A stretch of 64,000 nucleotides of DNA from contig NZ_MCHY01000009.1 in NCBI RefSeq assembly GCF_003609605.1, forward strand, positions 156,074 to 220,073, in the 5' to 3' direction. Source of the DNA: Ammoniphilus oxalaticus (GTDB taxonomy: Bacteria; Bacillota; Bacilli; Aneurinibacillales; RAOX-1). Of this stretch, positions 16,161 to 20,905 are shown piece after piece. The notes beneath the pieces are model-generated. The model had not been told where the DNA came from. It saw nothing but the letters and a program-made list of their open reading frames with translations, and searched no databases. The translations under genes were made by a program, and so were the position numbers. How positions within the stretch are numbered: position 1 is the stretch's first letter; every line of letters begins with the position of its first letter.

Positions 16161-16387
16161 AAAAAGCCCCCATCCCTGAGGCATTTTCCATGCCTAGGGA
16201 CGGGAGCTATTGCACCCGCGGTTCCACCCTAGTTGACGCAATCAATCATTGCGTCCCCTTTATAAGAAATAACTCTGGATTGCCGTTTCCCTGTTTTCTT
16301 GTTTGGGCTTGCACTCACCCCAAATCGCTGAATTACCGAATTTATCAGGTACTATTGATCCTTCATCGTTAATATAAAATACTATTT
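16161..16387 (-). promoter_or_regulatory. Glycine T-box riboswitch upstream of glyS
   Basis: The T-box core AGGGTGGAACCGCGGG (minus strand) lies near 16210-16230 and is followed by a terminator hairpin with stem CCTAGGC / GCC-TGAGG type pairing and a CTTTTTC tail (16161-16204). The upstream stem I region carries a GGC triplet at 16282-16284 that can serve as the glycine specifier. Uncharged tRNA-Gly should favour the antiterminator and raise glyS expression. Confidence 0.9.
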
Positions 16388-17702: not shown

Positions 17703-17734
17703 GAAGAAAGAGCGCTCAGTATGAGCGCTCTTCT
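17703..17734 (-). terminator. Terminator with GAGCGCTC palindromes
   Basis: Stem AGAGCGCTCA / TGAGCGCTCT followed on the minus strand by TTCTTCT. It ends the small zinc-protein gene and overlaps its last base pairs. Confidence 0.7.
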
Positions 17735-17864
17735 ATTCATTCTGCTCTAACACATCATCGGAGTAGGTGTCGGATATTTTGTCCCGACAATCCCAACATT
17801 CACTTCTGGTTCTTTCTATTATCGCTAATTCTAATCCACAATGCACACAAACGTCGGGTCCCAT
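17733..17864 (-). CDS. Zinc-ribbon-like mini-protein (43 aa)
   Basis: A 43-residue protein with two CxxC pairs (CVHC at residues 6-9 and CWDC at about 24-27) spaced like a minimal zinc ribbon, and an acidic C-terminal tail (SDTYSDDVLEQNE). GGAGGGG lies 7 bases before the ATG. An extended -10 promoter is found upstream (TATAAT at 17921-17926), and beyond it a cluster of DnaA boxes. I do not recognise the family. The combination of clean promoter, ribosome-binding site and terminator makes it a real gene. Confidence 0.65.
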   Translation of the reverse strand: MGPDVCVHCGLELAIIERTRSECWDCRDKISDTYSDDVLEQNE

Positions 17865-17920
17865 ACATATCCCCTCCATTCATTTCATTAAAAACAAGCT
17901 GTCTTGAATCGTTATCATGT

Positions 17921-17950
17921 ATTATAGCATGACCACTCTACAGCTTTAAA
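17921..17950 (-). promoter_or_regulatory. Extended -10 promoter of the 43-aa protein gene
   Basis: Minus-strand TGCTATAAT (TATAAT at 17921-17926) with a weak TTTAAA (17945-17950) at an 18-base spacer. It lies between the mini-protein gene and the DnaA-box cluster. Confidence 0.6.
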
Positions 17951-17992
17951 CGTTTAATTTTAAAATGTTCTAATAGTCAACTTGCTCTTATC

Positions 17993-18064
17993 TTATCCAC
18001 GTCATGTGGATAACTTTGTGGATATCATGTTAAGATAGCTGTGGAATGAATTGTTTTATCCACA
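17993..18064. promoter_or_regulatory. Cluster of DnaA boxes
   Basis: Within 72 bases: TTATCCACG (17993-18001), TTATCCACA on the minus strand (18005-18013, perfect), ATATCCACA minus (18017-18025), CATTCCACA minus (18040-18048, poor) and TTATCCACA plus (18056-18064, perfect). dnaA and dnaN are not in the window, so this is not the usual oriC setting; it resembles the outlying DnaA-box clusters of Bacillus. It lies just beyond the stop of spoVAD and upstream of the 43-aa gene promoter. Confidence 0.75.
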
Positions 18065-18084: not shown

Positions 18085-19092
18085 TTAATGAAGCATATTT
18101 TCGATTGCTACCGCATGGGCAATACAAGGAATGCTTTCATTTTGCTGAAAACTAATTGGAGATAACAAAGCGCCCGTCGCTACGATTAAAACTTTGTTTA
18201 ATTCGCCCCGTTTCATTCGATTCAAAATATGGCCGTAAGTCACGACGGCCGAACACCCGGCCCCGCTAGCTCCAGCAAAAACAGGTTGCTTCTCAGTATA
18301 GATCATCATTCCACAGTCCACAAAGCGCTCATCCATTTCAAATCCATGTTTACTTAACAAATCTTTCGCTATCTCGTAACCAACCCCGCCTAGATCCCCC
18401 GTAGCAATCAAATCATAGTCATTAGGCGAGCATTGCAGATCGCGAAAATGAGCAACCAATGTGTCAGCAGCGGCGGGAGCCATTGCCGCCCCCATATTAA
18501 ATGGATCCGACAACCCCATATCTACCACCCGACCGAGCGTCGCAGAAATAACATGCGGGCCATCACCCTCTTTACTTAACACCACTGCTCCAGCGCCTGT
18601 CACCGTCCATTGCGCTGTTGGTGGCTTCTGCGCCCCGTACTCCGTTGGATAGCGATATTGTTTCTCCGCAGTGGAGTTGTGACTAGCGGCGCCACACAGT
18701 ACATAGTTTCCCCCGTTATTGTTAATAATCGAGGCGCCGAGCGCCAAACCTTCCATCGATGTGGAACAGGCGCTAAACAAACCAAGGTAAGGACATCCTA
18801 ACGTTCTGGCGGCAAAACTACTCGTTATAATCTGATTCATCAGGTCCCCGGATAGAAAAAATTGAATATCCGCTTTTTTCAAGCCCGCTTTTCCAATCGC
18901 GATTTCACATGCCTCTTCGAGCATTTTTTTTTCAGCCTTTTCAAAACTGTCCTGACCTAACCATGTGTCTCCATGAAGAATATCAAAATCGAGCGCTAAC
19001 GCTCCTTCTGCTTCAAAAGGTCCGCCAACGGCCCCAGCTCCCTGAATGACCGGCCTATTTACAAATACCCAAGATTGATGCCCTTGTAGCAT
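18085..19092 (-). CDS. spoVAD: Stage V sporulation protein AD
   Basis: A 335-residue thiolase-fold protein. SpoVAD binds dipicolinic acid and works with the SpoVA membrane proteins to load Ca-DPA into the developing spore. Marks: VFVNRPVIQGAGAVGGPFEAEGALALDFD at the start, FSACSTSMEGLALGA around the thiolase-like Cys, and GASGAGCSAVVTYGHIL near the end. It follows spoVAC with a 2-base gap. The usual next gene, spoVAE (AEb), is missing: after the stop there is only a DnaA-box region. The set belongs with the DUF421 and DUF1657 genes upstream. Confidence 0.95.
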   Translation of the reverse strand: MLQGHQSWVFVNRPVIQGAGAVGGPFEAEGALALDFDILHGDTWLGQDSFEKAEKKMLEEACEIAIGKAGLKKADIQFFLSGDLMNQIITSSFAARTLGCPYLGLFSACSTSMEGLALGASIINNNGGNYVLCGAASHNSTAEKQYRYPTEYGAQKPPTAQWTVTGAGAVVLSKEGDGPHVISATLGRVVDMGLSDPFNMGAAMAPAAADTLVAHFRDLQCSPNDYDLIATGDLGGVGYEIAKDLLSKHGFEMDERFVDCGMMIYTEKQPVFAGASGAGCSAVVTYGHILNRMKRGELNKVLIVATGALLSPISFQQNESIPCIAHAVAIENMLH

Positions 19093-19094
19093 GG

Positions 19095-19574
19095 TTAGAA
19101 CCCTCCCAATTTTAAAATAGACAATTTCACGAGAGTCACAATAAATGCAGCAACAACACCAAACACAATCACTGATCCGGCCAGCTTAAAGATATTCCCG
19201 CCAACGCCAAGCACATAACCCTCACTTCGATGTTCAAGCGCCGCAGATGCAACAGAGTTCGCGAATCCGGTCACAGGAACAGCGGATCCGGCTCCAGCCC
19301 ATTGTCCGATATGGTCATAAACACCGAGACCGGTAAGTAAAATTGCAATAAAAATAAGGGTTGCCGCCGTCGGATTTGACGCCGTTTTTTCCGTAAAATC
19401 AAAAAAGGTCATATAAAATTGGGATATTAACTGGCCTAGCGCGCAGATTAACCCGCCGACTAGAAATGCCTTGACACAATTTATAAGTATAGGGCGCTGC
19501 GGTTCCCGCTGTTTTGCGAATGCCTGATATTGCTGTTGTGTCGGTGTTAATTTCTTGTTTTTCTTATCGGACAT
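19095..19574 (-). CDS. spoVAC: Stage V sporulation protein AC
   Basis: A 159-residue membrane protein. After a polar start (SDKKNKKLTPTQQQYQAFAKQREPQRPILINCVKAF is shared in type with SpoVAC) there are about four hydrophobic helices with the conserved GLGVYDHIGQWAGAGSAVPVTGFANSVASAALEHRSEGYVLGVGGNIFKLAGSVI region. SpoVAC is a mechanosensitive-like channel of the spore inner membrane used for Ca-DPA movement. Its start is ATG with GGGGGC at about 7 bases. Adjacent to spoVAD and behind a DUF421 gene, the arrangement of the spoVA2mob-type operon. Confidence 0.95.
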   Translation of the reverse strand: MSDKKNKKLTPTQQQYQAFAKQREPQRPILINCVKAFLVGGLICALGQLISQFYMTFFDFTEKTASNPTAATLIFIAILLTGLGVYDHIGQWAGAGSAVPVTGFANSVASAALEHRSEGYVLGVGGNIFKLAGSVIVFGVVAAFIVTLVKLSILKLGGF

Positions 19575-20770: not shown

Positions 20771-20905
20771 TTATTTAACTTTTGTTGGGCTTTTAAACTC
20801 GTCCGCAAAACAATCCATGCAGTGAGAGTCTTTCTCTTCTATCTCAAATTTTGTTAACTTCACTCCACAGCTTTGGCACTTTTTATCAAGTAAAGTAATT
20901 CTCAC
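20771..20905 (-). CDS. Cys-rich mini-protein (44 aa), putative zinc ribbon
   Basis: A GTG-initiated 44-codon frame with GGAGGAG about 6 bases upstream. It has two CxxC pairs (CQSC at residues 10-13 and CMDC at about 29-32) separated by a charged linker, the layout of a minimal zinc ribbon, and ends KSPTKVK. It is monocistronic with its own terminator. It resembles the 43-aa protein at 17733 in design but not in sequence. Family not recognised. Confidence 0.6.
   Translation of the reverse strand: MRITLLDKKCQSCGVKLTKFEIEEKDSHCMDCFADEFKSPTKVK

Follow-up and report, generated by a model that had tools for sequence, protein, structure and literature searches.

An oriC-proximal DnaA-box cluster between spoVAD and a CxxC mini-gene in Ammoniphilus oxalaticus, a probable lineage-specific DnaA sink

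Introduction

In E. coli, datA and DARS are non-coding clusters of DnaA boxes outside oriC that set the availability of DnaA. The role of non-oriC DnaA-box clusters in Bacillota is debated, because in B. subtilis a strong effect appears only when all six are deleted. B. subtilis lacking the six clusters initiates early, and single clusters matter little (PMC5295017; PMC13220808). Of the eight regions that DnaA binds most strongly in B. subtilis, the six outside oriC lie at ywcI/vpr, gcp/ydiF, trmE/jag, ywlC, yqeG/sda and yydA (PMC4447404, table 1). Most of the strongest regions hold 7-12 sites, and the trmE region holds 4 (PMC4447404). In the literature searched, outside of which Okumura et al. 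2012 falls, there was no report of this gene-anchored set of clusters in another family.

The locus described here lies in a 64-kb stretch of the genome of the spore-former A. oxalaticus, C9:156074-220073, which is called the window below; coordinates without a contig are window positions. A first-pass annotation, made from the letters alone, had singled out a group of DnaA-box-like 9-mers upstream of a gene for a small CxxC protein. It read the group as an outlying Bacillus-type cluster and the mini-protein as a gene that may respond to DnaA.

Results

In exactly 72 bp, at 17993-18064 (C9:174066-174137), there are four DnaA boxes, two perfect and two with a single mismatch. Box 1 (17993-18001, plus strand) is TTATCCACG, with one mismatch. 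Box 2 (18005-18013, minus strand) is a perfect TTATCCACA and forms an inverted pair with box 1, TTATCCAC-N4-TGTGGATAA. Box 3 (18017-18025, minus strand; ATATCCACA, one mismatch) follows box 2 in a 12-bp phase, so that boxes 1-3 stand at +0, -12 and -24 and make up what we call the (+,-12,-24) array. Box 4 (18056-18064, plus strand) is again a perfect TTATCCACA. Five boxes had been counted originally, including two perfect sites. The two perfect sites are indeed present, and the fifth 9-mer, CATTCCACA at 18041-18049 (minus strand), is a weak candidate with three mismatches that gives no match when up to two are allowed.

The clustering of these boxes is not random, and the boxes are real as sequence. 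At up to one mismatch, there are 3065 boxes in 3.32 Mb, or 0.92 per kb, and at this density a Poisson model gives an expectation of 0.096 groups of four boxes in 72 bp for the whole genome. When the 64-kb window was simulated by a first-order Markov model, one of 200 runs reached four boxes. The genome has 56 copies of perfect TTATCCACA, as against 16 of the reversed control, and neighboring perfect boxes no more than 100 bp apart were observed 10 times against an expected 0.09. These counts of perfect boxes cover the genome, and clusters including one-mismatch boxes were scored in selected stretches of it. Contig C9, which bears oriC, accounts for 21% of the genome and carries 26 of the 56 perfect boxes. 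The ten close pairs mean that the site between spoVAD and the CxxC gene is one of roughly ten clusters and is not unique. The genome-wide count that the first-pass annotation proposed shows four boxes in 72 bp to be more than chance would give, yet not alone in this genome. In being made of near-consensus boxes clustered far above chance, the site is like the B. subtilis clusters.

The absence of dnaA and oriC from the neighborhood had also been pointed out. This holds for the window, but oriC lies 162 kb from the cluster on the same contig. The gene for DnaA is at C9:335027-336379, and the single DnaA C-terminal domain of the genome was found at C9:335105-335305. There are 13 boxes upstream of dnaA (C9:336376-336753) and three more downstream, in the gap between dnaA and dnaN. 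The cluster is therefore outside oriC and in the origin region of the chromosome. It was also considered as a chromosomal origin itself and rejected, since dnaA and oriC are 162 kb away and the GC skew, whose sign is constant across the window except in the first 4 kb, does not break at the cluster. Compared to oriC in this family, the cluster lacks dnaA and the dnaN half, and it has four boxes where oriC has 9-13.

Further clusters were found in the genome, and the genes beside them were identified by profile search: tsaD/gcp (seven boxes, downstream of the gene), sda-yifB (four), yyzF-rlmH (four), ywlB-ywlC (seven) and the start of mnmE/trmE (three). With yydA of the B. subtilis list being rlmH, five of the six strongest places outside oriC in B. 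subtilis bear clusters here, namely tsaD (gcp), sda, rlmH/yyzF, ywlC and mnmE (trmE); the sixth, ywcI/vpr, was left out of the comparison. Clusters at the dnaA promoter, mnmE, rlmH, ywlC and tsaD are present in all three other genomes of the family (G001-G003). The sda cluster was seen in both relatives examined for it (G002 and G003, with G001 left out). The dnaA-dnaN gap has a box cluster in all three relatives, and the one in G001 lacks a perfect box. In this family, which is not that of B. subtilis, the boxes of the recurring clusters at tsaD, sda, rlmH/yyzF, ywlC and mnmE are often spaced almost alike (90-91 bp at sda and 13 bp at rlmH, for instance).

Several box groups at other places were seen in the course of this work. 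At G000:C13:74600-74691, a small crystallin-like gene and a cupin gene enclose three perfect TTATCCACA in one orientation that span 92 bp; this is not among the known cluster places. At G000:C9:368625-368642, two perfect boxes abut to form the 18-bp palindrome TTATCCACATGTGGATAA just 3' of an actin-like (ParM-type) gene and its partner. Two small clusters of boxes spaced by 11 bp, about 1 kb apart, lie near the end of contig C9 (G000:C9:701035-702031), upstream of a gene for a SleB-like cell-wall hydrolase. Arrays in two different genera, at G001:C2:76340-76404 and G003:C23:479058-479122, have common box offsets of 0, 20, 36 and 56 and different neighbor genes.

The inverted-pair core TTATCCAC-N4-TGTGGATAA, at up to two mismatches, occurs at just three places in the genome: the spoVAD-CxxC cluster, oriC and the ywlC cluster. 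The control gave no matches. The same search was extended to the 15 genomes of the order, and for the 14 others the best copy per genome was read. In 13 of the 14, the best copy is at oriC, ywlC or rlmH. Nine genomes (eight of the second family and G001) have it upstream of dnaA, two at ywlC and two at rlmH/yyzF; the context is unrelated in the remaining one, G003:C33:943k. The (+,-12,-24) spacing matches oriC in two relatives. The array at G003:C33:943349-943415, TTATCCACA..TGTGGATAA..TGTG.ATA..CATGTTAA..GCTGTGGAA, is much like that of the window, and CATGTTAA and GCTGTGGAA are common to both at the expected places. Part of this shared stretch may be a diverged box. This G003 array and another at G003:C33:941650-941726, both phased by 12 bp, flank genes for a MerR-like regulator and a small XRE-type protein. 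No homologue of the MerR-like neighbor was found in the genome that holds the window and, as a result, a simple move of the G003 array could not be demonstrated.

The boxes are bordered by spoVAD (18085-19092, minus strand), the stop codon of which is 21 bp from box 4, and spoVAC follows at 19095-19574 (minus strand). G002 and G003 retain the order selA...spoVAC-spoVAD-spoVAEb...citZ, and spoVAEb is also present in G001. The spoVA operon of the window (18085-19574) consists of spoVAC and spoVAD without the spoVAEb kept by the relatives. The remaining spoVA family members are outside the window in a second operon on contig C6, which includes the only spoVAEb-like gene.

A search for the same cluster in relatives, as suggested at the outset, gave a negative answer at both of its neighbors. 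At the syntenic spoVAD interval it is absent in all three family relatives, and no box cluster is present between spoVAD and citZ in G002 and G003. More than one box within 500 bp downstream of spoVAD was found at none of the 37 loci checked (two Ammoniphilus records plus 35, from 80 named SpoVAD loci). Homologues of the CxxC gene exist in all 15 genomes of the order, and none of the 34 other homologues has a cluster in the upstream 400 bp (two of these loci were shortened by contig ends). A box cluster kept upstream of orthologues, the mark of a conserved DnaA-regulated gene, was thus not found, and conserved DnaA control of the CxxC gene is unsupported. The CxxC paralogues of the same genome also lack a cluster. 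In three relatives, the CxxC gene is flanked by two alpha/beta-hydrolase genes, a setting that none of the three CxxC copies of this genome has within the stretches examined. The cluster tracks neither spoVAD nor the CxxC gene. Being absent beside spoVAD in relatives and upstream of every other CxxC homologue, it is specific to this lineage and is not carried along with the mini-protein.

On the other side of the boxes lies the CxxC...CxxC gene itself (17733-17879, minus strand), whose product of 43-48 residues matches no curated family above the cut-off. The length of 43 residues given in the first-pass annotation is correct for the internal ATG; from the first ATG, the reading frame has 48 codons. 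A strong, symmetric, terminator-like hairpin at 17708-17732 separates the gene from that for citrate synthase. A candidate sigma-A promoter at 17921-17950 (minus strand) reads TTTAAA-18-TATAAT with an extended -10 TG. The boxes had been placed just upstream of such a promoter, and the candidate is there (17950-17921, minus strand), but the pattern scan found two sites where 2.1 are expected by chance, so the promoter call depends on its context. Measured from the likely transcription start, the boxes lie about 80-150 bp upstream, clear of the candidate promoter.

Two other features of the window were observed near this locus. A second CxxC...CxxC mini-protein of 44 aa, encoded at 20771-20905 (minus strand), is conserved next to the lipoprotein gene in relatives. 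At 16193-16375 (minus strand), a T-box leader upstream of glyQS (glycyl-tRNA synthetase) scored 82.1 bits, below the gathering score of 93, with an E-value of 2e-17.

Discussion

The site resembles the B. subtilis clusters outside oriC in having several near-consensus boxes within one or two hundred bp, in intergenic DNA on the oriC-bearing contig, and sister clusters in the same genome occupy five of the six B. subtilis places. It differs in its place between spoVAD and the CxxC mini-gene, and its four good boxes, candidate sites by sequence, are fewer than most B. subtilis regions have. A position at a known cluster gene is typical of that set without strictly defining it, and the spoVAD-CxxC interval is absent from table 1 of PMC4447404. 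The cluster thus looks like a member of the known B. subtilis-type set at a new place. With the dnaA-promoter half of oriC in this family it shares an inverted pair, a 12-bp register and a third box 12 bp on, as in the (+,-12,-24) array. With datA and DARS of E. coli, the likeness is at most one of working, and no nucleotide-switching role is indicated for the spoVAD-CxxC cluster. The reading as an outlying Bacillus-type cluster was supported by the five shared places and by an array that copies the arrangement at oriC. The first-pass annotation had also named, as a possible refutation, an oriC located elsewhere with many equal clusters. Both were found; they make the site an ordinary cluster of the set and are not counter-evidence to DnaA binding.

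In our judgment, 17993-18064 is probably a lineage-specific, oriC-proximal DnaA-box cluster that would act mainly as a DnaA sink and possibly also regulate the CxxC promoter. We infer DnaA binding, titration and effects on transcription at the cluster. The inverted pair and the 12-bp-phased box 3 would seed cooperative binding of DnaA, like the dnaA-promoter half of oriC, with box 4 extending the assembly. Located 162 kb from oriC, the cluster should be duplicated soon after initiation, which would double the sink early. The duplicated cluster would then soak up DnaA and, together with the clusters at tsaD, sda, rlmH, ywlC and mnmE, help to delay re-initiation. As a by-product, the DnaA complex may raise or lower transcription from the CxxC promoter, about 80-150 bp downstream. 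Three observations go against this reading: the cluster, with four good boxes, falls short in size of most of the top-ranking B. subtilis regions, it is absent at the syntenic place in three family relatives, and in B. subtilis the loss of one cluster by itself has little effect.

An alternative is that the cluster is primarily a transcriptional switch, at which bound DnaA activates or represses the CxxC gene and couples a small zinc protein to the state of replication. A plausible promoter follows closely on the boxes, and the gene forms a unit of its own, with a strong hairpin as its boundary. DnaA directly regulates sda, ywlC, yyzF-yydABCD and other genes in B. subtilis (PMC8203912; PMC4447404). 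The yyzF gene likewise encodes a small CxxH/CxxC protein, but it matches a different family. We consider a switch unlikely, given that boxes and promoter do not overlap and that neither the paralogues in the same genome nor any of the 34 other homologues in 15 genomes has a cluster within 400 bp upstream. For the same reasons, and with none of the three syntenic intervals holding a cluster, the proposal of a DnaA-responsive mini-protein was not supported. Regulation of the CxxC gene by the cluster, as at sda in B. subtilis, is possible, and nothing in the analysis favors it.

Less probable still is a relic, that is, a piece of another replicon or a relocated box array without a present role, left by the rearrangement that removed spoVAEb. 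The locus has been rearranged, with spoVAEb missing here and present in G001, G002 and G003 (followed by citZ in the latter two), and a very similar array exists in the unrelated context of G003:C33:943349-943415. However, genes for replication or transposition were not seen immediately beside the cluster, half of its four main boxes are perfect, and the GC skew of the window does not break at the cluster. We give very little credence to the boxes having clustered by chance in AT-rich intergenic DNA, or to the inverted pair being an RNA hairpin at the end of the spoVAD transcript. The transcript strand of the box region does fold better than shuffled sequence (z -3.1), but the inverted-pair hairpin has no T tract and was not called a terminator, about 0.1 such clusters are expected per genome, and the same inverted pair was found again at oriC, ywlC and rlmH across the order. 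An RNA element at the boxes was rejected, as there is no Rfam match and the stable fold lacks a T tract.

The more interesting by-product of this analysis is that another family has the B. subtilis set of clusters at the same genes. Tentatively, and with clearly less confidence than in the sink itself, we suggest that Bacillota may retain an ancient, gene-fixed core of clusters and add new ones near oriC at arbitrary places between genes. The site described here would then be a recent gain of the oriC-type (+,-12,-24) array that tunes the timing of initiation in its lineage independently of the neighbor gene. The same gene-anchored set in another family, together with one unshared cluster that has an oriC-like core, offers a natural comparison for the debate over these clusters. 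If the number of clusters and their nearness to oriC outweigh the neighbor gene, titration would be favored over gene regulation.
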